Shown in pieces: positions 13,990 to 62,520 of a DNA stretch of 64,000 bases. Below the pieces are notes generated by a model that ran no database searches, was not told where the DNA came from, and saw nothing but the letters and a program-made list of their open reading frames with translations. Numbering within the stretch: position 1 is the stretch's first letter; each line of letters starts with the position of its first letter. The position numbers and the translations under genes are program-made. This DNA is from Gymnothorax reevesii. Lineage: Eukaryota; Chordata; Actinopteri; Anguilliformes; Muraenidae. The stretch spans positions 12,896,313 to 12,960,312 of the forward strand of contig CM056578.1 in NCBI GenBank assembly GCA_029721435.1. The letters run 5' to 3'.

Positions 13990-14262
13990 GAAGGTGACTT
14001 GGACTCAGAGGGTTATTGGTTTAAGCCCCAGTGCAATCAGATCAGTGCAGCTGTTGGGCCCTTGAGTGAGGCCCTAGACCTCTGATTGTTTTGGGAGTAT
14101 TTCCTGTTTGTAAATTGAGCAGTGAGTAGTGCTATACCTCACAACACGAATGCTCCGAATCTGAATTGGGATCTGAGGCCTCTCTGGTGTGGAGTTTACG
14201 TGGTCTCCCCCTCTCCGAGTGGGCATCCTCCTCCGGTCCATGTTGGGTCAGCTGCGGGGATC
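13990..14262 (+). mobile_element. tRNA-derived SINE copy
   Basis: A tRNA-like head with a B-box-like GGTTTAAGCCCC is followed by CAGTGCAGCTGTTGGGCCC and the fish-repeat core GTGTGGAGTTTACGTGGTCTCC. The TCAGTGCAGCTGTTGGGCCC segment recurs in antisense at 17118-17222. Starts within 15 bp of the preceding MITE. Confidence 0.6.
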
Positions 14263-14485
14263 TTCTTAGTTATACAGTTGTACATACACATGCTGTTGTA
14301 TCTACGAGAAATATGTTTTTTATCAAGTCATTATGGTCGTAATGTTTAAACCAAACTCATTGCTGGTCAAATTTGCCCTGTAACTGCAATGTGAGTAAAC
14401 ATATTTGCCCTGTAACTGCAATGTGAGTAAACATGTAATATTCTGTAATTCCATGTTATACTCTGGCATACGTCTCGGGCTGTAG

Positions 14486-14761
<276 letters not shown>

Positions 14762-16439
14762 TAAAGCGCATGTTTTTCACATGTTTTTATTTTATTGTTC
14801 TTTCAAAATGCCAAAGAAAGAGTTCTAGAACTCAATCGCCTCCAGTCACCAGTATTTTCTGTTACATCAGCATTGTAATTACCGTATACTGTACACTTTG
14901 AATCATCAAAGTGCTGATTTTTTCTTTCTTTCTTTATTTTTTTGTCTAAGTCAATTCTTCACCCGTTCACTGCGTTGAGTAGCCAGTAGTGATTGTTCAA
15001 TTAACATCGCTGTGTTCTGATATAGTACTTCTATTCACATGTTTGCGTGACCTCATACCTTGAGGGGGTAGAAAGTTGATGAATGAGAGGTACAGACTAT
15101 ATAGACCAAAAACGGGCTCATAATTTGTAAATTTGCATCTTCTTTTGGTTCAGTTGATAAAATCCATGTTCAGGGACAGCGGCGAAACAAAGCCCGAATA
15201 GATACTACCACTTGTGTTTGTCAGCTAAGTTTATGAGCTCCATTGCTGTTTACTGCTGTCGTTCCCGTTAATTGGAGTGGTCTGATGGAGCAAGAATAAA
15301 GGTCTTGTGACTTTTAATGAGGCCAGTCGAGATTTATCTTAATAAGGCATTAATATTCAGCTCACCGAGCGCCTGACTCCGGCAACAGCGCCATGCAAAT
15401 GTATCTTTAGGCTGCGGAAAAGGAACAGAAGGTCAGTATTTTAGAGACATCTGGCGCCTATTTTAGGTTCCTTCAACTGAGGCCCATAGTAGAGAGTATC
15501 TGACTCTTTTGAGGAAGGAATGGTGATGGAAGACCAAGGGAGAAAAAGGGTTGATGGTGTTTGAGGACCATTGGACAGGATGGAGTGAGACAAATACGAC
15601 ATCCTGCTACATTCACCTGCTTCTCTCAAGAGTGCTGCCTGGCTGACAGTCAAATACCGATATTCATCTCAGCCGTGTCATGTTAGCTGAGCTGGAAGTG
15701 CACTCAGTAGACTGCATACCACCGCCTGCACCATTGTTTTTGATCTTTTTCTCCAATGTTGACTTTGACTTTTAACCTTGGCATGTGAAACTTTCACGAC
15801 CTCTTACTCCCGCAAAGTTTCATCAGAAATGGTTCAGAACATTTGCCCTTATCCTGCTCACAGACAGACAATGAACAGTCACAGACAGACAATGTTGAAA
15901 ACATCACTTCTTTCCAACTTTGTTGGTGGTAACAACAACTCCAGATGTATTCTCTGATCTAGTAAATGATTCTTCCTGTTTCATTTGGAAAACGATAGCT
16001 TTTCATTTTTCACATTATTGTATACAGTGATACATTATTATCAACTACTGAGACAAGGATTGATAAGGGAAAATTTATTTGGTCCTTGATATTTCCTCTG
16101 AGGAAGTCACTTGCTTCTTGTTTTAATGGTTTGTAAAATACAGCCTTGCCCTGTAAGTTCAATATTAATGAACAGTGCACATCAGTATTGTTTAGAATGG
16201 CTGATTTGCCCTCCAAAAATTATCACAAGTCATGTGATCGTATCATCTGACCCTCTCATGCCACATAGCACATTGTCAATCTTCACCCATGATATGACTC
16301 TTAAATCTTACACATGTAGACACTAGAGTAAATACAGGATGTGTCGTACATCTCCGCCATGATTAACGGGAGGTGGTGAGAAGCTGGAGATGTTATCGCC
16401 ATGGTAACGCATGATTGACAGCCTGGGCCATCTGCTTGA

Positions 16440-16784
16440 GCTCTGGGATTTGTTACAGAGCTCTCCTTTTGTGTGTGTTTGGACATCACGTTTGTAATTA
16501 TGTGCTCACCTGGTGTGCGTGTGTGTATGAGATCTTCTTTTGTGTGTGTGTGTGTGTGTACACTACTTTTGTGTGTCTGTGTGTGTGCGTGTGTGTCTGG
16601 TTAGGTGCTCTCTGTGTGTTTCTGGGTGTATTGGAGTATGAGGTCTCTTGTGTTTGAATGTGTGTGTACGAGTATAGGTGTGAGTGTATGTGTCTGCATT
16701 TTGTTGTGAGTGCGCGCGTGTGTGCTTACATGTGTGTGCGTGTGTGAGTGTGAGTGCGTGTGTTTGCGTTTGAATTTGAGTGTT

Positions 16785-16818
<34 letters not shown>

Positions 16819-16820
16819 AA
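16440..16820 (+). repeat. GT-rich microsatellite region
   Basis: About 380 nt dominated by interrupted TG dinucleotide repeats, with pure runs near 16541-16558 and 16790-16818. Open frames across it reflect the repeat and not a gene. Confidence 0.9.
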
Positions 16821-17117
16821 TCTGTCCCTAGAGTTGGCGCTTACGAAGCTCCAGATGGCTCAAACTTGGGCCGATATCAGGCACACAGGAATGTAGATCA
16901 GGAGGACTTTGGCAGCTGGCCGGCGACATGCTCTACTGGAAAATTCATACCTTGTGCTTTCAAGCTTGTCGAGAAAAAAATCTGCTTTTTAATCTGTGTC
17001 ATTCTTTTAATCTAGCATACGGCACAAATGGTAATAAACGGTTTGTTCTTTGGCAGCCATGTTTGCGAGTGCATAACTGGTGTGTGCCTGCATGTAAACA
17101 GAGCGACTTAGGTTGAT

Positions 17118-17222
17118 TATGAGACACAGCAGGGGGCAGAGGTCCCCCACTGGAGCCATGTCTAGCTAAGGGCCTTGCTCTGGGCCCCAACAGGTGCACT
17201 GATCTTATTGCAGCCACACTTG
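17118..17222 (-). mobile_element. SINE fragment, antisense
   Basis: The reverse complement contains AATAAGATCAGTGCACCTG, TTGGGGCCCAGAGCAAGGCC and CTTAGC, matching the body of the SINE at 13990-14262. Lies about 190 nt before the TM2-TM3 exon. Confidence 0.55.
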
Positions 17223-17317
17223 GGCCCGATCCTTCATAGGCCGGTATTCCCTGCTAGGCTAAAGACAGCCTCACTGTCATGGGGATGCAGGATATTTTGT
17301 TTTCATTATTTGCTTAA

Positions 17318-17626
<309 letters not shown>

Positions 17627-18339
17627 TGACCAACCTCAAACGTCCCCCTAATCAATAGGCTATTTATTTTCGTCGGAAATCATCATGTCCAAGGTGGTAT
17701 GGAGCTTTGCACTGTAAAATCACTAATTATTACTTAATTTTACATCAACCAGTTCCTCACAACTGTGCCAAATAACTTCTGAATACCTCCCAAGATGGAA
17801 GCCCACAACAATTATTGAAGCTACTGTGAAGTTAGTGATCACAGTTGTGTGTCTTCAAATGTCCCTCATTGAAATATTCTGTGGTAATTTCAGCAAGGTA
17901 CATTTCATTAAGTCTACAAAGGTTGTGCAGCTTTTGTTGATATGATCATGGGTTAGGACTTCCACAAGTGTTAATTCTCCTACTTGTGTTTATAGAGAAA
18001 GGTCAAGCAGTCATTCATTTCCTTTGCTCTCAGATGGCCTGTTTATCACTGGCACCTCTTAAAGACTGCTTAAATCCTGCCTTGGAATGCAAACCATCAA
18101 TTGACCTTTCTGTGGGCTGCTGATTACCATGGTTGCAGTGTCCTTGTCTGTCAAGCTTTCTGTGATGAGAATTGATGTTCAAAGGCACTGCAGTTCGGGT
18201 TTGCATTTCACAACTCTAATATATTAATGCCATCATCAATTGGGATCATTCCGATGCATTCATAACTTATTAGTGAATTGGTAAAATGGACATTGAAAGC
18301 ATTTGATTGTATTCCCTTATGAAAATATCCCATAGTTAT

Positions 18340-20130
18340 TTCCTAGTAATACTGTAGTATTAATGGCATAACTATGGTATTACTAGAGTTTGCATTGTAC
18401 AACTAGATTAGTACTACAGCCATCACATTATAACTATAGTATTACCTCATTCAACAGTACCATAATATCACTATAGTCCACACAACTGTATTGCTGTAGT
18501 TTTAATAACTGTATTATCCAGTGGCGAACCATGAGCCCTACAGCTGGGCCTTCATCTCAGCCATCACCGCCGAGAAAAGACGTCATCACGGAAAAAAAAA
18601 GCAACGTTACAATGAATCGAAAGGGTTTAGTTATTTTGAGAAATCGTACTTCACTTGAGTTTTTTTTTTTTTAACAGGACTTTTACTCTACTACATTCAA
18701 AACATAAAAATTATACTTTATTACTTTGACCCTGGCCATTTCATTACAATTAAAATATGAATGTAATTCATCTTTTAAGGATTATCTGGGCTCCTCAGCT
18801 ATGCCTGATGTGCAAACTGCTCAATATACTTGCCCATACAATCTATCTAGCAGTTTAAAAAAAATTTATCTTGCTAGAGAAACAATCGTTGTCCTCTGTA
18901 GCAACCAGTTCAGCTACAGTGAGTCCATAGTATCCAAATTAGTAGTAAAGAAAAATCTATTTTCTAGAGCAAAAATTTGACATGGTATTGATCCTATGTC
19001 ATTCTACGATTAATTATAGTCAATTACAGTGGTTTTTCAAACTGCCAGTATACTCAAAGAAGAAGAAGAGGTCGAAGTTTATAAAGCAGAGACTGCCTGT
19101 TTGTTTTTTGAGTAGTTTCATTCACCTGAAAGTTGATTAAAGAGAAGAAGGAGAGGACGATGTGTGATCGCTTTGCTTCTTTCTATGCATACTATGAATA
19201 ATAATTTGTACTTGTACTTGCACTTTTGATACTTTTGATAAGTATTTCTTTTTCACAAGATACTGTACATTTAATGTGAGCTACTTCAAGACTTTTACTC
19301 AAGTAATTTTCTTATGGGTGACTTTAACTTTTACCAAAGTAACTTTAAGTTATGGTAATTCTACTTTTACTTTTTTTGGAGTACTTTATACACCTCTGGT
19401 GTTTTCTTACAGCCCGTTGTCCACACATAGCGCTGATAATTTTCCGTCTTGAAGTGCCTTTCCACTTCTTCAACCTTTTCTTTTAATTCCAGTTCTGAAA
19501 TTGGTTGTCCGTTTTTTTATTATTTAAAGTTTTTCTGTGAAAGGCCGCCATAAAAAAGGCAATGGTATCAAGCTAGCCACAACGTCACTTTCGTCTTCCG
19601 CCATTTAACTCTGTTTCTCACCCGCCCTCAGCACTCTGCAGTGATTACGACGTTCGGACTTCACGAAGGCCTAAGAGCTTTTGATTTTTGTCCTGCCCAC
19701 TTAAAGCTTTATGCATAGCTTGCCTTTCCCCCGGATTCATGAAGTCCTAACCAATTAATGAGCCAGCTGACAGGGTCTTGACAGAGACGGGCGATTCTGA
19801 TTGAAAAACATGTTTTCAGAACAGTAACCCTTTCATTGCTGATGTGAACTTGACAGTAAGCTTAACTTAAAACATAGATGAGAGAAAAATGTATTAAATG
19901 TATTTTATTAAATTAAATGAGATAGAAATTTTTCAAACAATAATTATTTTTTGGTCCAGATTTTTTTAGGCCTTCTCTGAAGGCGTAGAAGGCCCCGACG
20001 GTTCCCCTCTGATATTATCACTATAGTAACACTACTCTATAGTAGCGAAAATACCATCCATTTACTACAGAATAGCCATAGCTTGTAACTATTGTAATTT
20101 TTCACGAAGGTTCTGTTGTAGCACATTTCT
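18340..20130. repeat. AT-rich repeat with ACTATAGTA motifs, split by a hAT element
   Basis: Sequence on both sides of 18519-20011 is built from recurring ACTATAGTATTAC, CACTATAG, TACTACAG and CTGTAGTATTA motifs in both orientations. The left part is about 18340-18518 and the right part about 20012-20090. It looks like one palindrome-rich element that served as target for the hAT insertion. Confidence 0.5.
18519..20011. mobile_element. hAT element in the microexon-bearing intron
   Basis: Left end CAGTGGCGAACCATGAGCCC and right end GGGCC...GGTTC..CTCTG are inverted repeats of the hAT type. The flanking 8-mers GTATTATC (18511-18518) and ATATTATC (20012-20019) match at 7 of 8 positions. About 18640-19398 resembles another common fish element ending TTTATACACCTCTG, so a nested copy is likely. 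No intact transposase is visible. Confidence 0.78.
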
Positions 20131-21507
20131 AACACTGTACTGCCAATAGAAAACCCATCTTGTGCAAAAGATTGATCAGACTGAATTGGAATAAAACACT
20201 TATCAAAGTTTACCCTGACTGCAGAATTATTTTCTGCTACGTTAGGTCACTGTTCTTCAGATACTGTTTTGTGTCAAATTTCACTAGAGTAGAGTCTCAC
20301 AGGAAATTGTGACACTGAGGGTTAAGTAAATTCTTTTCAAGTTCTTTTGCCCTAACCAATGCGAACAATAGTTGTTTTGACACAAGTAAATTGGAGTTAT
20401 TGAGAAGATTTTTGCCTTAAGATTGAAATCAAACAGTGCTAACATTCTTTTAATGTGCATTATTACTGCAAATTAGTAACTGATATTAAAATGAGTGAAA
20501 AATAGATCTGATTACAGCTTGGTTTCAGCGGCAGATTTCATTTATTGTTCTGAATGCAATTTTCTCATGAACAGGCCAAGGGTTTCAGAAGATCTCTGTA
20601 AAAATGTGTTTAATTAATGTGCTTTTAATGATGCACTCTTCGGATGTTTGATGCAGATTGCGGTGAAAATGATGCGAAGGAAGAAAACGACACCAAGTTT
20701 CTATTTTACATAAAACCTCCCAATGTTGCATTTAAAGCAAGATGACTTCAACTTTAGCATGACTTGAAAGGGGTTGAAAAATCTGTCAGCCTTTATTTTC
20801 TCTCAGACCTCTTACATGAAGACTCGAGTTAAAGTAACCTGCTTGAGAGACGTTCCGGGTGTGAAATATAAAATTGAAAAAAGCACAGTTAAGAAATGAT
20901 GTTTGTTCAGAAAGTTTTTTTTTTTTTAATCATGTAGTCATAACAAATGTGTCCAGTATGCTGTTTGTTTCGTCCAATTTTTAGTATGTTTGTTTCTGTC
21001 TATGACGTTTTACATCGGGATGTCCTCACAAATACAGCTGTGATCCAAACGCAGGAAACTGCGGCATATCTGACACGGTGCTGATTCTTTCATATCACAT
21101 GGAAAATGGGTGTTATTTCACTTTGACTATTGGGGGGAAGAAATGCATGTACCTGGAGAACTGCAGCCCACTTGGGAGGTCCAGCTACATATATATTCCC
21201 CAAAATTTTTGAAGAACCTAGATGCACAGTGATTATTTCTGGCGAATTCTAAGGGGACAATACCAGAACACTGATCAGTGTATCCCATTTACCCACGTTA
21301 TCCCATCTCGGTTGTGTGAAATTATTCCTCTCATTATTACGCTGCATTATTGGGGGCGGGTTAACATGTGTTGTTTTGTAATATTGTGCAATGTTGAGAT
21401 TCTTGCCTGTAAATTACGGCCCTTGCTGTGTACCACTGTATCCCAACTGTGCGTCACCCTCTTTTAGTTGAACAACAGATGACTGACTGTGTCTCCTTAA
21501 ACTTTAT

Positions 21508-21578
21508 GTCTCCTTCTTTTCATACCTGTTCTTTTTTGTCCCTCTCTTCTTCTTTATCCCGCGTGTTCTCTGTCCCCC
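21508..21578 (+). promoter_or_regulatory. Long pyrimidine tract before the microexon
   Basis: About 70 nt dominated by C and T, with TTCTTTT, TTCTTTTTT, CTCTCTTCTTCTTT and TTCTCT runs, ending about 13 nt before the microexon acceptor. In mammals PTB represses the gamma-2-long exon through such elements, and a distant branch point is expected from a tract this long. Regulation here is inference from position and composition. Confidence 0.5.
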
Positions 21579-21592
21579 CGTCGGGAATAAAG

Positions 21593-21616
21593 CTCCTGCG
21601 GCTCTTTTCTTCAAAG
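21593..21616 (+). CDS. gabrg2: Candidate alternative 24-nt microexon (gamma-2-long insert)
   Basis: Exactly eight codons, LLRLFSSK, lie between an AG at 21591-21592 and a GT at 21617-21618 in the phase-0 intron. In mammals this intron carries the cassette exon encoding LLRMFSFK that distinguishes gamma-2-long from gamma-2-short. Six of eight residues are identical, one is the conservative Met to Leu change, and the serine at position 6, a known protein kinase C target in mammals, is kept. Position 7 is Ser instead of Phe. A 70-nt pyrimidine-rich tract (about 21508-21578) with TCTT, CTCTT and TTCTCT motifs precedes it. The final acceptor is GAATAAAG, a poor match with A at -3, and the donor is AAAG|GTATTG; both fit a regulated exon. 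Splicing itself is inferred, not observed. Confidence 0.82.
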
Positions 21617-23033
21617 GTATTGCCAGTGTCTGCGTAGAAGCGTATTGGCTGCATGCATCTGCTGCATCTCTCCTTTCTCCAAATTCACGCCCTCCCCTCC
21701 CGCAATCACGCAATGTCCGCCACTTCTGGTTGCGTTTCTATTGGATAATGCTTTATTTCACAGGTCGTTAATTGTAGTATAAACTGGGTAAACACCGGCT
21801 ACTTGCTAGCAGTCATTGGGTAACTGTTCTTGATTTCAGCGGTCAGTAACATGAAACGAGTTTTAAAATGCATCGTTACGGGCCTGTAAATAGGCTGAAA
21901 ATGCGCTGGTACTTACTGACTTCGTTTCATACGCTTAGGGGCTAAAAAAGGCCCAGTTTGCTTTTTTATCATAAATGTTTGTTTGTCTAACGCAGATTGT
22001 TTAGTGTTAGCAAATACTGTGTACTATTATTTGTGACAATGTATTATTTTTCAGCTAAAAAGTGCATCTGCTAGACTAAAAATACCACCACTTTAGAAAA
22101 ATGTCATCAGTCTCATGTTTCGGCCTAGTCAGAGTGAAGTTTGATGTCCTCTTTCCGTATTTATGTGAGACTGTTTGGTTTCACATTAAGTGAAAACCAG
22201 CTGGAGAACATATTTTGACCTCTGATCAACCAAGTGGAACAAAATCGATTCTTCTACCAGTGAAAAGCTGCCTGCAATTTTACCCACGTGACTTTGATGT
22301 TCAGGGGAAAAAAAAAAGAAAAAAAAGGATTTTATGCATTTTTATTCTTGCTAACCACTTGCTTTCCATTGATTTGCTGTATGAAGCATGAAAAATTCAA
22401 TTTCCTGCAGTTTTTCAGTTTGCCCATTTTTTAAGCCCCAAAGTGTAGCTCTGAAATCAAAATATACCCAATAATTACACAAGTAACTCGTAATCACCTG
22501 GTGCACACTGTATGTAAACACCTGTGAAATAAAGTCATACTATTTTTTAATTTAGTATAAAATTTATTTTGTATTGTCACAGTATTGGATACCTATAGCA
22601 TTTTGCAATCTGTACCTGCGGATAATTACCATAAAGGCATCCCAAGGGCAGAGATTGTACTGGAAAGCGCTGCTGCTATAGGATGTTTGCGCATTCAGCT
22701 GGACTGTAACATGGTCACTATGTGCTGTGCTCTGTCGTCTCTCTGCTTGGGGTAAATGACACGGATGGCTGATCACACCATTATTTGCATTAGGGGCACA
22801 CGCCGGGTCCCCCAAAGTTTTGGAGCTCTTTGCTTTTTCGCCCCTTGAGGGAAGCCAAGCTGTGTGCGGTGAAAGCCGATGCATAGCGGACAGTGGGTCC
22901 GGCCTTAACTGACTGAAATAGACAACCCCCCCCCCCCACCACTCCGCACCATAACCTGCCTCGTTAGTAATCAACTTTACAGCGCCACTGAGCAGAGATA
23001 CTTGCTGCCGCCTTTAACTTTAAGCTGAAGGGA

Positions 23034-23125
23034 CCTGTGTGTGTGTGATTGTGTGTCTAGTGTGTGTGTATGTGTGTGTGTCTGTCTTTGTTTGCGCGCA
23101 TGTGTGTGTGTGTGTGATTGTGTGT

Positions 23126-23161
<36 letters not shown>

Positions 23162-23360
23162 TGTCTTTGTTTGCGCGCATGTGTGTGCGCGCATGCGTGT
23201 GAACAGTATGTGTGAGTACATATATGTGTGCATGTTTGTGTGTTTATGTGCATTTGCTTAGACGTGTGTGCTTTTGTGTGCTCGCGTTGTTTGCGCGTGG
23301 ATGCTTGTGTGTATACATTCAGGTGTGTGTGTGTGTGCGTGTGTGTGTGTGTGTTTTGTG
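23034..23360 (+). repeat. GT minisatellite with duplicated higher-order unit
   Basis: Interrupted TG repeats in which a unit of about 70 nt is repeated. It is ATTGTGTGTCTAG, then TG repeats, then TCTGTCTTTGTTTGCGCGCATG. The two copies are at about 23048-23101 and 23117-23180. A third GCGCGCATG follows at 23185-23193. Confidence 0.88.
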
Positions 23361-25328
23361 CTTCTACCCTTGTTGGTGCATGTGACTGTGCAGGTCATTT
23401 AAAAGTAATACAGAATTAGTTCTATTTTCAAAAAAGCTTGCTGCACTGGTTGCAGATTTTGAAACTGAAATCTTTAAGACGCAGTCTGCACAGAGTGTAC
23501 ATGAGGGTATGTTTTTTATTTTTCCTTTTCCTGGGGCCTTTGCCTCCCCCTTATCGGTTGGTTGTCTGCTTTAGTCCCTTGGGGTCGCGATCACTCTGCA
23601 CTGTGTGCTAACCCCAGCACATGCAGCTATGCCTCCATACCCCAGTACATGGGGCAGGTCTATGCGCGCCACTGAGCTTCACTTGTTGCTTTTGACTACC
23701 CATGCTGTCTCTGCCAATGCCACTTACCCCTAACCCACAGTGCTGGAGCCACTAACCCTACTGCTTTACTGTGCTTATCCAGAGACATTAAAGTCCAAGT
23801 GCCAAAACTAACTCACAGCAAAAGAATGTTCAAACAATAGCTCCTCAGTACAGAAAATGTATACGTCAGGCTATCATTTCCCTTGAAATGTCTCCTGCTA
23901 ATTGCTGGAAAATGGCACTCCCTTGGTGTGTACCATTATTTGAATCAAAACAGAATGGGATATTCCATAACATGTAGTGCTTGTAAGGGGCAGAATCTAC
24001 AGAATTACAAACGAACATATTTTGAGATTTGACATTCTGGGAGTGTGTGCAATGTTTCTCGCAATAAATGGAAACGTTTATGGGACTTGGACTTTAAGCA
24101 CCTCATGTACTAGTGCTGGGATGATTTCAACACACTGTGATATTGTGGCCACTGACACTTGTAGAAATTGTGGTAGTCATTGAAAGACAAGAATGTTTAC
24201 CTAAAAAAAAACACAAAACTCATATAAAGGATTATGTAATTCTTAGAAATGAGGGTGAAGCTGTATTCATGGTTGAAATAGAATGGATGGAAACAAAATT
24301 GTGTTCTTCAGAAATATGTTTTTACATAACCATATCTTTTATATTTATTTTTTTCTGTGGGCAGACGATTCCTTCAATGTCAGTCCTCATGCTCAGAAGC
24401 TCTGCATTAATTAAATGATTAATGTAGAAGATTAATGCACCACAGAGCGATGATTATTTTACTGGACGACTGAGAGGAGACGAATGTGACCTCGTGCCAG
24501 GAGGCAAAAGCACTTGTAACAAAAAGGCAGGAAATTATTAATAGATTTCATATAATAAAAATAGCACAGAATCAGAATTCAATATAATACATGGCATCTA
24601 TGATATTCTTTCACAATCCATGCTCAATTTTTACGGCAAATTACTGAACAAGTTGTGCCTTAAACGGATTCGTTTTCCATGCACCGTAAAATTATAGAAG
24701 TGATTTTTACCTGCCCCGCCACCCCTAAAAATTTCTTGGAATTTATTGCCTTACTTGAGCTCTTAAAGTGGTTTCAAAACAAGTGTCCCATTCTCAAGCT
24801 CTTGTTCTGGATGCAGTGAAAATGCACATTCATGCAAGAGTTCAAATGACCCTAATGTAGCCCTGTTTTACATGAAGCAATTTCCCTGAGGATAGCTGTG
24901 TGTTCAGCTCAGTTCGGCTCTGACTGAGGTTACGCCTCTAAATATGCCGCGGCAAATATGAATACATGCTACCCAGCACTAGCAGCAGTGATGTGCCAAA
25001 AGAATTAAACAAGACCCCTTGAGGTCAAACTTATCATTGCTAAGGTATAATTTGCATAGACCTTACTCTGTTCTTTAGTAACGGTGAGGTGTCATCTGCT
25101 GAAGTAGCAAAACTGCTCTTTGTCAACAGTGGTTATGTTTTTTTGTGCTTTTGTGAATTTTTTTTTCTTCCGTCTAAAGGTAAGGTGTTGTGTAAATTGC
25201 CTTTATGATTATTTTGCTTTTAGCAAATAGAAAAAAAAAAACGGAGTATTTCAGTGGATGAAACAAGCCTCGCTCTGTTAAAATAGTGGCCGCTGACACT
25301 GTTTTTTACCCCTTTCTCCTGGCTTTAA

Positions 25329-25613
<285 letters not shown>

Positions 25614-26086
25614 ACCCCTACAGCATCTTTGCATAGGCCTTGGCCCGCTCTTTGCAAGATTGTTTCATGGTTTCTTAATTTCCTTTTTTCTTTTTTTCAT
25701 TAATTGGCCTGCCGTGATCAAAATGCAACAAAACAGCGAGCTTGCAAGTTGTGTCTTTTTATTTTTACGTTTATTTGCTCACAATCAATCCATTTTCAAG
25801 TTAGTTCGGTTCTTTTGAACAGCTCGTCACTACAGTTGAATGAAGCAGACGCTGTAGCAAAACCAAATGGGGGCGGAGCTGAGAGTGGGGAGGCGGGGGG
25901 GTGGGGCTTTGGGAGGGCAAGCTTTCTGTGATTGGGCAAAAAAAAAAAAGGAGCACAAATTGGAGAGTCACATGATTTCTCCTCATTACAGCAGGAAGGA
26001 CAGTCAAAGAGGAAGCCCATTCTCCTAATAAGATTCTTTCCCTGCAAAGCGCATGAATATAATTTTATAATATGGCGATAAAGAGC

Positions 26087-26092
26087 AATAAA
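26087..26092 (+). promoter_or_regulatory. Canonical AATAAA polyadenylation signal, proximal
   Basis: AATAAA about 475 nt after the gabrg2 stop codon. A plausible proximal signal; use is not shown. Confidence 0.4.
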
Positions 26093-26756
26093 ACCAGTCC
26101 ATTATTATTCCTTGGAAGGCATGGTTACATTGTAATACTTTACAAGGCCAGTGTCTAAGAATCATATCAGTCATCATATCAAACTTCATAAATGAAGCTT
26201 ATATTTGATGTTTTTAAATAATGTCGGACAAATCAAATTCAATGAGGATCGTCATGCACAATACTATAGTAAGGTCCCAGTTCTCACCCCCATATTTGTT
26301 TCTTTCTTTTCTGAAAAAAATTCATCTTTTCTTTTTCTTACATGGGTTGTTTATATTTCCTGCACCTTGGAGGCACCCTTGTACATGGAATGAGAATATT
26401 TTGAATATAATAGTTTGGGAAAACCGGATTTAACAAAGCACTTTAACAGTGGGATGAATTAACACAGTGAGTATTGTTTTTCAGTCAGTATTCATATATA
26501 CACAGCAGGAGGTTGTTGAACGACTGCAGTTGACTCTTTCTTTTTAACGTGTGGTCAGGGCTAGAAAAAAAATATATGGTCTATGATCAACTGTACAGAC
26601 ACTGTAAATATTTTAATATGCTGTAGTGGTTTATATTTATTGCATGCACCTTTAAGACCAAAATAATTATATGTATTGAGGTCTTCTACTGTCGTCTATG
26701 GAATTTAAAAAAAATTGCTTTACAGTCACGTCAATGTAATTGGACCTTAATGAGAG

Positions 26757-26762
26757 AATAAA
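26757..26762 (+). promoter_or_regulatory. Canonical AATAAA polyadenylation signal, distal
   Basis: AATAAA about 1.14 kb after the stop codon, downstream of conserved-looking AT-rich 3'UTR-type sequence. A plausible distal signal; use is not shown. Confidence 0.4.
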
Positions 26763-26780
26763 ATCAAATTCAACAAGTGT

Positions 26781-28080
26781 CCATTGAGTTTAAGATTTTG
26801 GACTTTCTAATGATTCTGTTCGGACCATGGAACATTCACTAGACTGCGGTTTTAGTACAGCTAACGTTGCAAATATGAATTCTTTGCCACGGATTTTAAG
26901 ATTGCCCCAAATCCTAACCAATGCTGGCTTGGCAAATGAGTGTTAAATTTGTTTTTTGTCATGCAATTAGAGAATGTGTAAAATTGATTAATTTTTTAAA
27001 TAAACAAAAAAATGTACTTACTTTCCATATCTTTTTAAAAAGCTTACTAATCAAAATTTGTTTGTTTATCACGGTATTCATCAATCTGCTCATCAGAGGA
27101 CCATCCCAACATAATTATCCTTTCAGTCAGTGGTAACCAGTTTAAGGAGCGCTTCGTATCCAGCAGGTTTTCACTCCAAAACTGGAAAAGCACACCTCAT
27201 CCAATGGTTAGAGATCTTGTTCGACTGATAATTTCTAGATAGGCCACCTATTCATGAAGTGACTGTTACTTCTTGAGGCGATAATCCCTGCAGTCCTGAT
27301 AGCTAAAGGACTGTAACTTCTAGAACACAAGGGATATTCACAAACCGCAGTTGGCAGGACCAACATCAGATGCCAGATGCAGTTATTTTAAGAACATGAC
27401 CTAGTTTGCCACTGTAAATGTTCAATCGAATCTCATCGGCTCCTCGGTGGAAGAACAAAACTGCTAATAAAACTGCAAGAAACATGCTGCACAAAATGAG
27501 ACTAGATTGCGTTTGGCACTATATACCCCCATGGCGTGCCCTAGTGCAGGAAAATCATCCACCCTGATTATTGACTTAGAAAAAACCAGGAAAAATCTGA
27601 GCTATAACCTTGCCCTCAAATAGGCTCCTGGAGACACCCAAATTTATATTTGAGGGCTATTTGTACGACAGTTCACCAGCTAGAGTGTGAACAATCGATG
27701 ATAAAACAGACTGAAGGTCGGATGGATAGACTGACAGTGGATGGGACAACAGTAGTCCATAGGCAACTGACAGTGGATGGGACAACAGTAGTCCATAGGC
27801 AAATGAATGGCCGAAGGGGTAAAAACTAAGATCTCTACCATACGGTAGGCATAAATATGTACTCAAAATCTTCAGAATAACGAAAACCTCTGTAAAACCG
27901 CATGCGAGTGATACCTGGATGGCCTCCTGCATTCTGCAGAATTCTGCTGTTTTTGATGGATATACACTGTGCTATCCCATGAGCCTACTGGCACTGAGAT
28001 GAAGAGATATTTTCATGGCGACAGAGCAGGCGATAGCTCTTGAGAAAACTGTACAACAAGCTGCTGACATTGTCAAGCAA
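26781..28080. other. Start of the gene-poor interval after gabrg2
   Basis: AT-rich sequence with no recognisable gene. It contains the 36-bp tandem duplication listed at 27730-27801. Nothing else is identified. Confidence 0.6.
27730..27801 (+). repeat. Perfect 36-bp tandem duplication
   Basis: ACTGACAGTGGATGGGACAA followed by CAGTAGTCCATAGGCA occurs twice back to back (27730-27765, 27766-27801) with no difference, implying a recent duplication or slippage event. Confidence 0.95.
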
Positions 28081-28564: not shown

Positions 28565-31370
28565 AAAAATAGACGATATACAGAATCAGCAGGAACTCTT
28601 CATTAACCTGCCAAATGCCTCCAATTGTGACGTAAAATTGTGTCTTTAAATTTTAGTGTCGGTCAACGTTATGCTTCATCATGCGTAAACCGAGTCAGGA
28701 GATGGGCATTGTAGTAAGTCCAATTTTGTGCTGACACTGCTGTAATACACATATTGTATCTACTTGACGGTTGAGTAGTAGGCATCAAAGCAAACTCTGT
28801 GCACACATATGAAGTATGGTCCTGTGGATATGCCCAAAGTTGCTCTTCTGAAGAAGACAGTTGAAGAAGTTGAGCAAGAGTACCAAACTGGCAACTGAGT
28901 GAGCTTTTATTGTGATTATTATATTTATTACACCTCAAACGTAGCCTTGTGCCAACTAATTAAGGTTCCAGTCAAAACCTACTGGATCTCGTGCCACAGG
29001 ATTGGTTACTATTCTTGGTTACCAACATAAACCTAAAGCTTTTCCTGACCAGATTAAGTGCAAACTAGTATATGACTGGGCCGCCAAGTGCTGTCTGAGA
29101 ATATGCGCCCAAGCAAAGGGTGCGCATTGGCGATACTAAATATTAATCTGAAATTATAAATCTCCCTTATCCCTCCTAAAAGGGCGCCCCCTTTTGAAAT
29201 CTTTCTAGCGAGTAATTAGCCGAAAAAAGGCTTGATACGTAATTCTATCCCTTTCTCAGAATCCCTTTTCCCATTTCAGTATTATTTACATTTAAAACAG
29301 AAACCTCTTCCCGTCGCACCCTATGAAACATCGGCTTCGTAAGCCTAGCCTCATGTGTCGTTTTATGAGCTACTCGAAGTCTGCACTCCCGAAAATAAAC
29401 AAATAATCCTCGGAAAAAGTCCTAAATTTGAAACAAAGTAATTCATCGCATTGTAAATGGCTTACTTTTTTAATTCAATCAACTATCTTTAATGAATGTA
29501 ACTTCAGTGTCACTTCAGCCAGCAGAAATACATCCAGGCAGCAGGCTAATCCCATAAAAGGCATAAGATAATGAGCCTGATTATCGTTCCCTTTGGACTA
29601 TCATCAGCATTCTTAAAATGCTCTGAAACTGGCGATTTTATTTTATTTTCATCTTTTTACTGCAGGTACGTGAAAGTCATTTTCAATCTTTCGGTAACGA
29701 GTGCATTCTTTCAAACATAAGCTGACGCAGTACTTGTGGCAAAGACTGTGCCCTCTGGGTGGTACTCCTTCATGGCCCAGGAATATAGACAATCTGATTA
29801 AATTTTACATCACTGTCCTGGCAGTATGTTGATTCCTAGCTGCAAACTCTGATAGCTTAGCGCTGATTAGAGTTACTCAAATCCTAGTGAACACATGTAA
29901 TGAATCAGAGTGCAGGCCTAACAACTTATGCTGACTCTTCTGCCTTTTCCCAGTTGCTCAATCCCCCCTTAACAAACAAACTGTCACCGTAGTTGTGCAG
30001 ATAAATCAACAAATACTGTCGGTTTCCTTAACACAATGCAACTTTAGCCATTTTTCAAAAAACCTCATTGAAAAGATCTGTCAAATCTCACCGTGCCGAA
30101 TTTTATTCCTTGAAATGCGATGCTTGGTTGGAAGGATCCCAAGTGCATGGCAGTGCTAAAGTTTCAGATCCACTGCTGATGCTCTTCACCCGAGCGACAA
30201 GCTAACTGGTGCTCAGTGAAAGCTATTGCGGTGGCAGAATTGTTGCTTAATTCTATCATCAGTAATGTTGCTTTCATCACTGTCCTTGCGTCCACGAGTA
30301 ATGTAAGTGTAAGTGTTTTACTTTAGTTTCCTTCTAAATTTTGTTTGGAGGGGAAAAACGGATATCCCTCTCTGCTTGCTGTCGTTCGCCGTTTTTGCAT
30401 CCCACAGCATTTGTATCAGCGCTTTCTGCTGCCTTGAGAAAGCGTTCCCTCAATACATAATTAAAAATGCGAAACAAATTCAGCCCAGATTTTTTAATGA
30501 AAGGTTTTAGACATAGATTGTACAAAACCGTTCTAACCCAATTCATGTATTTATTTTTCTGTCGTAATTTTTACTGTTTAAAGTAACTGTTACATTGAGA
30601 ATGCTATAAGTCTGCAGCCGCCACCGGGAAGTGCTGCAAAGGGAGAGGCGCCCTTGTAAAGTTAAACACATTAAATACGAATGACATCAACGCCTGGCTG
30701 AGCCAACCAGCTAATCGTCGGTTAACCAATCGTTGAAAATATTCCCTGCCAGCCGACCAATCGCTGAACTTCTTCCCTGCCAGCCAGCCAGTGGTTGTAC
30801 TTGATCACTCAGGCGGATAGTCAGTCACTCGCTCAGCGACATTCGCCTTTATAGGGGCCTGGCAGCTGTTTGCGGCCCAGCCCAAAAATCTACTGTTCCG
30901 TTGGATTATCAAAACTACAGTAGTTACTCAGACCTGACTCTTTTATTTACAGCTCAATGACATCTCTAATTGTTGAATGCAATAATAAGAATTGGAGTCA
31001 AAAATGCCAAATTAGGGTTGGAGAGAAATCCTGCAGGATGATAAATCTTAAGGGACAGCGTTGGTTACCAGTGCTTTGGGTTTAACATGTGCTTTGATGA
31101 TAGAAAAAAAATGACTGAAATCATAAAAAGACAGTCATATTGTCATCCCCAGGGACACAGAAAAGAAAATAGAGACTTGGATATTTGCTCTTCATCCTAA
31201 ATGGTTATCACACCTGCGTGGTTTGTGTTCTTTTTGCATTAATATTTTAAAAAACCAACTTGAGCAAGTATGATTGGCTGAAACTGCTATACAAACATGT
31301 ACTGGCAACAGGACTGGTGCGTAAGCCTTACTCTAAATAAGGAAAACACTGTGGTCATATAGTTACCTAA
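28565..31370. other. Intergenic interval without recognised gene
   Basis: I see no coding exon, RNA gene or element with clear ends, apart from the short 31-bp duplication at 30725-30786. Confidence 0.55.
30725..30786 (+). repeat. Imperfect 31-bp tandem duplication
   Basis: Units ACCAATCG.TGAA..T.TTCCC followed by TGCCAGCC at 30725-30755 and 30756-30786 differ at about five positions, with a partial third unit after them. Confidence 0.8.
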
Positions 31371-40605: not shown

Positions 40606-41030
40606 TGTTTAGATTATTCCTCATACCTGTTGCCCCACCTAGCTTGTTACCCTTGTGCATATACAGTCCCTCACTTTTAGAGAGCTTTGTCAGACTGTTG
40701 ATCAACTTTTCTCTGTGCCGAGCTCTGTATACGTTAATGATCTGTTTGTGATTCTGTGTCGCCTTCCGTTTGATACCGAATTCTGTTTTTGCCTGCCCGG
40801 TTGTGTTCGCTCCTGATTATGACCCATTTTCTGCCCGACTCCGATTGCTATGTATTGCTGCCCTGGCATTTGGAATTCGGATTACGGACACTCTACTTCC
40901 CCACTGCCTCACGATTTGGTACTGTTGCCGGCGCTTTTCAGTTTTTTAACCCTTGCTTGTCTTTAGACTGTGCTTTATGGATTGCTCCTCTGTGCCGTCA
41001 CTGTGTTTACCTGGCTTTGGACTCGGACTA
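40602..41030 (+). mobile_element. Gypsy-like LTR fragment, interrupted copy
   Basis: From TTAATGTTTAGATTATTCCT through GTTGCCCCACCTAGCTTGTT and a C/T-rich stretch this resembles 47463-47860. Its left part was separated by the TTAA-flanked element. No coding sequence of an LTR element is visible beside it. Confidence 0.55.
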
Positions 41031-41135
41031 AGTAATGATCACGATTTTTGCACTTCTAAACTACTACTAAACTACTTGCAGTTGGATTTCTTTTCTCGGA
41101 GCATTACAGTGATTCTGACTGTGTACACACTGTGG

Positions 41136-41805
41136 CAAAAAGCTGCCGGTCCAGATAACGTCCCTGGACGCATGTTGAAAGACTGTGCAGAGGAGCTCAA
41201 GGATGTTCTCACAGATATCTTCAACACCTCGCTGAGTCAGGCTATGGTCCCCAGATGCTTCAAAGCCACAACCATCATACCTGTATCAAGGAAGCCACCC
41301 CCATCCTGCTTCAATGACTACCATCCTGTCACACTGACCTCCACCATCATGAAGTGCTTTGAGAGGCTTCTCATTGACCACATGAAATCCATCCTTCCTC
41401 CTGCCCTGGACCCCTTTCAGTTTGCATACCATTCCAGCTGCTCCACTGAAGAGGCTGTCCCCTCTGACCTCCACTCAGCTTTCACCCACCTGGACACAAA
41501 AGGCTCCAATGTGAAAATGCAGTTCATTGATTTCAACTCAGCATTCAATAGTATCATCCCTCAGCAGCTGATAGGGAGTCCGCCCCGCTGGGCCTGAGGA
41601 CTCTCTCACTGAGAGCTTGCAGTCAGTGTGGATTTGCGATAGCACATCGAGCATCATCACACTGAGCACAGGGGCCCCGCAAGTGTGCAAGCTCAGCCCT
41701 CTGCTCTTCACTCTGCTGACCCGTGACTGTGCACCAACTTACAGCTCCAACCTTTTCGTCAAATTTGCTGATGACATGACTGTGGTTGATCTCATCAGCA
41801 ACAAA
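41136..41805 (+). pseudogene. L2-type reverse transcriptase remnant, central part
   Basis: One frame runs without stop to about 41597; the next part lies in another frame from 41617 on. FADD at about 41764-41775 is the core of the RT active site. A deletion between GSPPRWA and the STGAP region removes about 40 expected residues and shifts the frame. It stops where the DNA element begins at 41806. Confidence 0.85.
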
Positions 41806-61234: not shown

Positions 61235-61816
61235 CAGTGGTTCTCAAATTCGGTCCTGGCGCCCCCCTGTGTATGCTGGTTTTTGTTCCAGCCACAACTG
61301 CAATTCTGAGATCTTAATAAGCTGTTACTTTGTCTTAATTAGCAGCATTCCATGTTTAGAGTAGTTATTTACCATCTTAAGTCACATTTGGATGGACACA
61401 TCCATTCTGCTATGGAGAATAAAAACCCTTGAACATCTTGTGCTTAATTTTCAATATTGCTGGAATTTTCAGGTGAAAACTTTTTTAAACAGATCAAATT
61501 AGACTCTGAGAGAATCAATAAGCTCCAAATTAGGTTTCTGAATGCAGGTGTTTTGAGTTTTTCCCAAATTACCTGCCTGAACCAAATAAAATCAACAGAA
61601 AACACAACAGGTGTGACTCCATTGTTTGCCAAGTAAATTGTCAGGTTTTACCTCCATGAGTTAAGAGTTTCACCAATGAGGAACCTGGGGATAGTTGCAT
61701 AAATGCTCCTAATTAAAACAAATCAACAGCTTGTTAAAATCCTAGAATTGCAGTTGCGGCTGGAACAAAAACCAGCATACACAGGGGGGCGCCAGGACCG
61801 AATTTGAGAACCACTG
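61235..61816. mobile_element. hAT-type palindromic element, copy 2
   Basis: Perfect 8-bp duplications CCATAAGG at 61227-61234 and 61817-61824 flank 582 bp starting CAGTGGTTCTCAAATTC and ending GAATTTGAGAACCACTG. Arms of about 60 nt pair (CGGTCCTGGCGCCCCCCTGT with its complement). It interrupts the reverse-transcriptase reading frame of the CR1-like LINE, and removing one duplication makes the frame continuous across the site. No coding; same family as 4691-5323. Confidence 0.92.
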
Positions 61817-62520
61817 CCATAAGGGAAGGTCATGCCTGACAAACTTTCTAGAATTTTTTGAAGAGGCCACCAAGGCTTATGACCAGAGTAGGGCTTATGA
61901 CATCATATATTTGGATTTTCAGAAAGCATTTGACACAGTACCGCATAAAAGACTAATTTTTAAAATGAGTTCCATTGGAGTTACAGGAGGTATTCTGAAG
62001 TGGATTCAAAACTGGTTGCAGGACAGAGCACAAAGAGTGGTGGTCAATGGTGTCTCATCTGAGCTAGGTATGGTAGGGAGTGGCGACCCCCAGGGATCAG
62101 TGTTGGGACCCCTGCTGTTCCTCATCTTCATTAATGACCTTGATAGGAATATTGAGAGCAGATTAGTTAACTTTGCAGATGATAATAAAAGGGAGGTTTG
62201 GCAAATAGTTTAGTGTCCACTAAAGTGATTCAGAATGATTTGGATAGAATCTAGAATTGGGCAGAAATGTTTCAAATGAAATTGAATGTAGGGAAATGTA
62301 AATTTGTACATGTAGGTAATAAAAACATTAGATGGGATTACTTCATGGGAGGTTTAAAACTGGAATGTGCTCCACACGAGAAAGATCTGGGAGTGTTTGT
62401 TGACCAAACCCTCACAGGCTCTAGTCATTGTGCCGTAGCAGTTAAAAAAGCCAATCGAATGCTGGGATACATTGCCAAAAGTATTGAATTCAAATTTAAG
62501 GAGGTGATCCTTCTTTTATG

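Follow-up and report, generated by a model that had tools for sequence, protein, structure and literature searches.

The window analysed here, 64,000 nucleotides of contig CM056578.1 of the moray Gymnothorax reevesii, carries coding exons of gabrg2 on its plus strand (Table 1). The intron preceding the last coding exon contains a 24-nt segment, CTCCTGCGGCTCTTTTCTTCAAAG (window positions 21593–21616), with AG at 21591–21592 before it and GTATTG after it. The exon upstream of this intron has CCG as its final codon (...KKKKNP) and is followed by GTGAGT, and the intron itself, between 17614 and 25335, is 7720 nt (7.7 kb) long. When the exons are joined, all joints are phase 0 and the frame stays open both with and without the 24 nt, which agrees with what an earlier note on this DNA had read from the letters, namely 24 in-phase nucleotides between AG and GT encoding LLRLFSSK. 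No Rfam family reached its gathering score in window 14000–27000. Downstream of gabrg2, the open stretches at 40950–41594 and 61746–62210 encode a reverse transcriptase domain (PF00078) and are retroelement relics.

Table 1. Features of gabrg2 and of the microexon surroundings in the window
Feature	Position	Strand	Remarks
gabrg2 TM1-TM2 exon (coding part used in the joined model)	14552..14702	+	donor TAG/GTGAAG
gabrg2 TM2-TM3 exon and start of the intracellular loop, 5′ neighbor of the microexon	17409..17614	+	ends KKKKNP, phase 0
Microexon 3′ splice region	21477..21592	+	AG-free 112 nt (21479-21590) between AG 21477 and acceptor 21591-21592
24-nt cassette microexon (LLRLFSSK), gabrg2	21593..21616	+	almost certainly orthologous to the gamma-2L exon of mammals; R-x-x-S and S-x-K around serine 6
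Microexon 5′ splice site GTATTG	21617..21622	+	off-consensus at +4, +5, +6
TGCATG (Rbfox-type) + 4 nt + TGCT (Mbnl-type)	21650..21663	+	motif match; TGCATG starts 34 nt after the exon
Tandem acceptor AGCAG (NAGNAG), gabrg2 last exon	25330..25334	+	upstream AG would add one Gln
gabrg2 last coding exon (loop end, TM4, stop)	25335..25613	+	after CAG; stop at 25613

The segment is 24 nt long with phase 0 on both sides, its peptide follows the pattern LLR[ML]FS[FS]K, and its host is gabrg2 rather than the gamma-1 or gamma-3 gene. Judged on these features, it is almost certainly the gamma-2L cassette microexon of fish gabrg2, orthologous to the gamma-2L exon of mammals. The earlier note had also placed it in the same intron as the mammalian LLRMFSFK exon. 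When the joined fish sequence is compared with PDB gamma-2 chains that contain LLRMFSFK, presumably human (the PDB answer gives the molecule name), the alignment runs through the insert ungapped (KNP-LLRMFSFK-APTIDIRP). With this query, 168 residues are matched in the chains with the insert and 160 in those that PDB names isoform 2.

To place the octapeptide among known proteins we considered the best 120 of 2416 and the best 120 of 145 matches from protein searches, 151 different proteins in all; the database entries are representatives of 90% clusters, and species names were taken from the search tables. The loop start HYFVSNRK was present in 61 of the 151 (three named gamma-1 and one gamma-3), and 22 of these 61 listed proteins carry LLR[ML]FS[FS]K. 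Twelve have LLRMFSFK (nine mammal and three bird records), seven have LLRLFSSK, all from ray-finned fish (Sphaeramia, Centroberyx, Puntigrus, the bichir Polypterus, Electrophorus, Triplophysa and Danionella, the last named only as a hypothetical protein), and three have LLRMFSSK (the sharks Carcharodon and Stegostoma and the ray Hemitrygon). One further protein of the 61, from the frog Leptobrachium (P0019), reads VIRSFGIK. The octapeptide is absent from 32, including the chimaera Callorhinchus (P0045), and six loops fell outside the search pattern. Each entry speaks for a whole 90% cluster, and absence of the octapeptide from the representative is therefore no proof of its absence from the species. 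Outside the count of 61 are three sturgeon records starting HYFISNRK and Centroberyx P0050 with a different loop; none has the octapeptide. Both long and short gamma-2 are listed for Electrophorus (P0005, P0017), Microtus (P0109, P0123) and Piliocolobus (P0012, P0032). The nearest database protein, P0007 from the moray Gymnothorax javanicus, has no octapeptide and equals the short form of the window (0 substitutions over 211 aa); its only name is "hypothetical protein", and it represents three clustered sequences.

Since the octapeptide occurs in sharks and a ray, the exon, as judged from these proteins, is older than the split between cartilaginous and bony vertebrates and hence also than the split of fish and tetrapods. 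The earlier note had claimed the latter age, and the listed ray-finned fish, sharks, ray, birds and mammals are in agreement with it. Lamprey or hagfish proteins were not found among the best 120 of 145 matches. Several loops are unusual at this place. The frog peptide VIRSFGIK has no serine at position 6, the residue phosphorylated in mammals. In the ray Hemitrygon (P0041) nine more residues, DIGKSTAPK, stand between the octapeptide and the last-exon sequence APTVDIRP. Two sturgeon (Acipenser) proteins, P0124 and P0125, carry the odd gamma-2 loop insert VSTVIVTISFS at the octapeptide position, possibly a misread intron.

A published zebrafish experiment provides a second line of evidence. The reverse complement of gabrg2_R, the reverse RT-PCR primer of that study (PMC6899022), consists of CT followed by the first 17 bases of the microexon (17/17), and the bases shared by zebrafish and moray include five third codon positions, all identical. 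The CT does not fit an intron-final AG, so the primer was presumably drawn from spliced sequence and ends two bases into the upstream exon. With the primer covering the first 17 bases of the microexon and two bases of the exon before it, the exon would be spliced into zebrafish mRNA and the reported time course would read gamma-2L. The forward primer matches the TM1-TM2 exon of the window at 18 of 20 bases, the product predicted on the spliced long form of the window is 262 nt, and the best site for gabrg2_R on the short form has 14 of 19 matches. As far as the available text of the article goes, expression was detected from 8 hpf, rose up to 5 dpf and went down from 6 dpf, with a weaker signal at 9 dpf; four gabrg2 transcripts through alternative splicing are mentioned with the exons left unspecified, and different primers were used for the in situ probe (PMC6899022). 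The term "gamma2L" does not occur in the main text. The "gabrg2" time course thus probably reads gamma-2L rather than all gabrg2, as far as the primer sequence tells.

The flanks of the microexon resemble those of a regulated exon. Pyrimidines make up 83% of positions 21493–21582 (-100 to -11), a level reached by only 3 of 7631 90-nt windows of the intron, all of them at this tract, which is thus the most pyrimidine-rich place in the intron. The last 100 nt upstream hold eight Ptbp-type TCTY motifs, the highest count in the intron, and the 100-nt windows with eight (79/7621) all start between 21452 and 21530. Shuffling those 100 nt gave eight or more in 231 of 2000 trials, so much of this count is explained by composition. 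The acceptor, AAAG, is off-consensus at -3, and the donor matches the consensus at 6/9 positions, compared with 6/9 for the exon ending at 14702 and 8/9 for the exon ending at 17614. Another GT lies nine bases past the microexon donor (window 21617–21627) and would make a 33-nt exon encoding LLRLFSSKVLP; its use was not seen in the loops of the 152 proteins examined.

Downstream, TGCATG at 21650 and TGCT at 21660 are separated by exactly 4 nt. In mouse Gabrg2, according to the available text of the mouse report, exon 9 has an Rbfox site in its downstream intron with an Mbnl site four nucleotides further on. The 2.17-Gb genome has 5902 copies of the composite TGCATG-N4-TGCT on one strand and 5890 on the other, so 0.00027 copies are expected per 100 nt of sense strand. 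It arose in 45 of 20,000 shuffles of the 100 nt downstream. The pattern written backwards has 235 and 240 copies and was not used as a control because it contains CpG. Further copies lie at 30144 and 51652 on the plus strand of the window, with none on its minus strand; three copies vs. 0.26 expected from window shuffles means that shuffles understate the rate of the composite. None was found within 140,000 strand-bases of seven other loci. A downstream cluster of Nova YCAY motifs was sought, and +1 to +400 holds seven vs. a mean of 7.05, i.e., no enrichment; the last 200 nt of the intron hold 0 vs. 3.5 expected. On these motif counts, part of a mouse-type splicing control region is apparently kept in this fish, and Nova control is not supported.

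Could the segment be a mere chance stretch between AG and GT? Open segments of this kind are common, with 13 open among the 23 AG-24nt-GT segments of the intron. Against this, LLRLFSSK scores 28 with LLRMFSFK (BLOSUM62; 6/8 identical) and the runner-up in the intron scores 4; the best other segments in the whole window score 9 on the plus and 11 on the minus strand. None of 1000 dinucleotide shuffles of the intron reached 28, and the top identity, 5/8, appeared in two of them. Fish, sharks, birds and mammals have this peptide, or one very like it, in the corresponding position, which together with the zebrafish primer match further argues against coincidence, and we consider this explanation practically negligible, in accordance with the first reading of the sequence, which had called a chance match very unlikely. 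The 2.17-Gb genome has a single copy of the exon's first 17 bases, and a genome search with the 321 bases around it returned that locus alone. A second explanation, that the segment descends from a true exon but has become a relic which this species no longer splices in, could draw on the off-consensus acceptor and on moray P0007, the nearest protein, being a short form. However, the frame, both splice dinucleotides and the peptide are intact, the peptide is identical to that of other fish, the primer shares all 17 bases, and P0007 is a hypothetical protein representing three sequences; a relic is thus very improbable. Equally improbable is a constitutive exon in place of a cassette. Such an exon would be compatible with the DNA alone, and counted by consensus matches its donor is as good as a neighboring exon's (6/9 each), but the teleost Electrophorus has both forms listed, the flanks are like those of a regulated exon and the protein listed for the nearest relative is of the short type.

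A more serious alternative concerns the control elements rather than the exon. The exon may be alternative with the UGCAUG-N4-UGCU element and the pyrimidine tract there by coincidence, the control in fish being different. This reading gains from the lack of Nova sites, from the share of composition in the TCTY count and from the other copies of the composite in the window. On the other hand, the spacing given in the available text on mouse is reproduced exactly, and the composite is expected so rarely per 100 nt that coincidental flanks seem to us unlikely, though by no means as remote as the explanations above. The favored reading is a regulated gamma-2L cassette exon with candidate control sites in its flanks.

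The acceptor of the last exon adds a further source of variation. Some fish proteins contain an extra Gln at this joint, as KNPQTPT in P0010, P0011, P0013 and P0030 and as the octapeptide plus Q in P0005, P0006 and P0083; the long forms of Electrophorus, Danionella and Triplophysa have it too, in line with use of the upstream AG at the last exon. With a tandem acceptor and an optional octapeptide, four loop forms are possible.

A genome search with the last exon gave one 100% match (gabrg2 itself), two matches that cover almost all of the exon at 75% and 60%, counts that are lower bounds, and at least five short partial matches besides. The 75% gene is read as gamma-1, its loop resembling fish gamma-1 in databases, and the 60% gene is presumably gamma-3, judging by its loop. 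In the corresponding introns, from about base 20 onward, every open stretch of 15 to 33 nt between AG and GT was scored, on a scale where the true exon reaches 36 (own peptide included in the scale) or 28 against the mammalian peptide. No counterpart was found in the gamma-1 intron (370 nt; best score -2) or in the gamma-3 intron (~6.7 kb; best score 13). A gamma-1 counterpart exon had been considered on account of F-rich inserts in gamma-1 of Tiliqua (P0055) and Octodon (P0081) and was rejected. Inserts near the equivalent place are seen in P0055 (skink), P0081 (degu) and P0049 (Callorhinchus), and a search with the Tiliqua loop gave four proteins, the other three (P0064, P0066, P0152) without insert. 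Rather than a counterpart exon, these inserts probably represent acceptor sequence that was taken for exon. Two further partial last-exon matches, at 12222315 and 12301090 on the same contig (G000:C6), lie ~0.6 to 0.7 Mb upstream of gabrg2, a position that would fit a GABA receptor gene cluster.

The presence of this exon in fish is not new to databases; it is an ordinary and old exon of a known kind. We found no paper whose title or abstract start describes gamma-2L in fish, and the strings LLRLFSSK and LLRMFSSK were not found in the literature searched, where LLRMFSFK occurs in four papers. Microexons can escape annotation, as the earlier note suggested for this one: 16.1% of 402 mouse-zebrafish microexon pairs, among which gabrg2 may be included, are missing from the Ensembl zebrafish annotation according to the available part of that study (PMC7821500), and moray P0007 has no octapeptide. 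However, since seven listed ray-finned fish proteins carry LLRLFSSK, the exon is not generally missed, and that suggestion holds only in part.

What the insert does in fish may be proposed by analogy with mammals. Skipping of the microexon would give gamma-2S, and inclusion would insert LLRLFSSK in the TM3-TM4 loop, adding a serine that the motif predicts to be in a PKC/CaMKII-type context; the fish peptide retains R-x-x-S and S-x-K around serine 6. In mammals, the available text describes S343 of the insert as phosphorylatable by PKC and CaMKII, the long-form loop as accumulating more at synapses, and mice without gamma-2L as showing mild effects only (PMC6116786). Inclusion of exon 9 drops in Mbnl2-deficient mice, and the exon is mis-spliced in myotonic dystrophy, as stated in the accessible part of another report (PMC9557336). 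Ptbp-type proteins bound to the long pyrimidine tract may keep the exon out as long as cells are immature or non-neural; as neurons mature, Rbfox bound to UGCAUG and Mbnl bound to UGCU four bases downstream may draw it in, as reported for mouse in the text available.

It is quite possible, if somewhat short of probable, that the exon and its developmental switch are ancestral to bony vertebrates, with Ptbp repression and a fixed-spacing Rbfox-Mbnl enhancer at the base and Nova added or moved later in tetrapods. If so, the zebrafish RT-PCR would be an unremarked gamma-2L time course peaking at 5 dpf, which the available text gives as the stage of strongest knockout phenotype (PMC6899022), and the published expression profile of zebrafish gabrg2 would need to be re-read as isoform-specific. 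The choice between gamma-2S and gamma-2L is a well-studied neural splicing switch, and this exon ties receptor switching in fish to that in mammals. Should fish have retained the control elements along with the exon, their larvae would offer a way to study the switch. The match in the control region and the zebrafish primer are worth following.

Compared with mouse Gabrg2 exon 9, the fish locus has the same 4-nt Rbfox-Mbnl spacing, the mouse value being taken from the available text and not from mouse sequence. Three TGCT sites were mutated in the mouse reporter, whereas the fish has one TGCT within 100 nt downstream, and the Nova YCAY cluster of the mouse downstream intron has no equivalent found in the fish. 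The gamma-1 and gamma-3 genes of this genome have an intron between the equivalent exons, in which no counterpart microexon was found. Ray-finned gamma-2 long forms, e.g., those of Centroberyx affinis, Electrophorus electricus and Polypterus senegalus, have LLRLFSSK at a position identical to that in the window. The mouse exon is 24 nt by its coordinates (PMC3907290). Relative to mammalian GABRG2 exon 9 (LLRMFSFK), the fish exon has Leu for Met4 and Ser for Phe7, and shares with it the length of 24 nt, phase 0, the position in the loop and the R-x-x-S-x-K motif.
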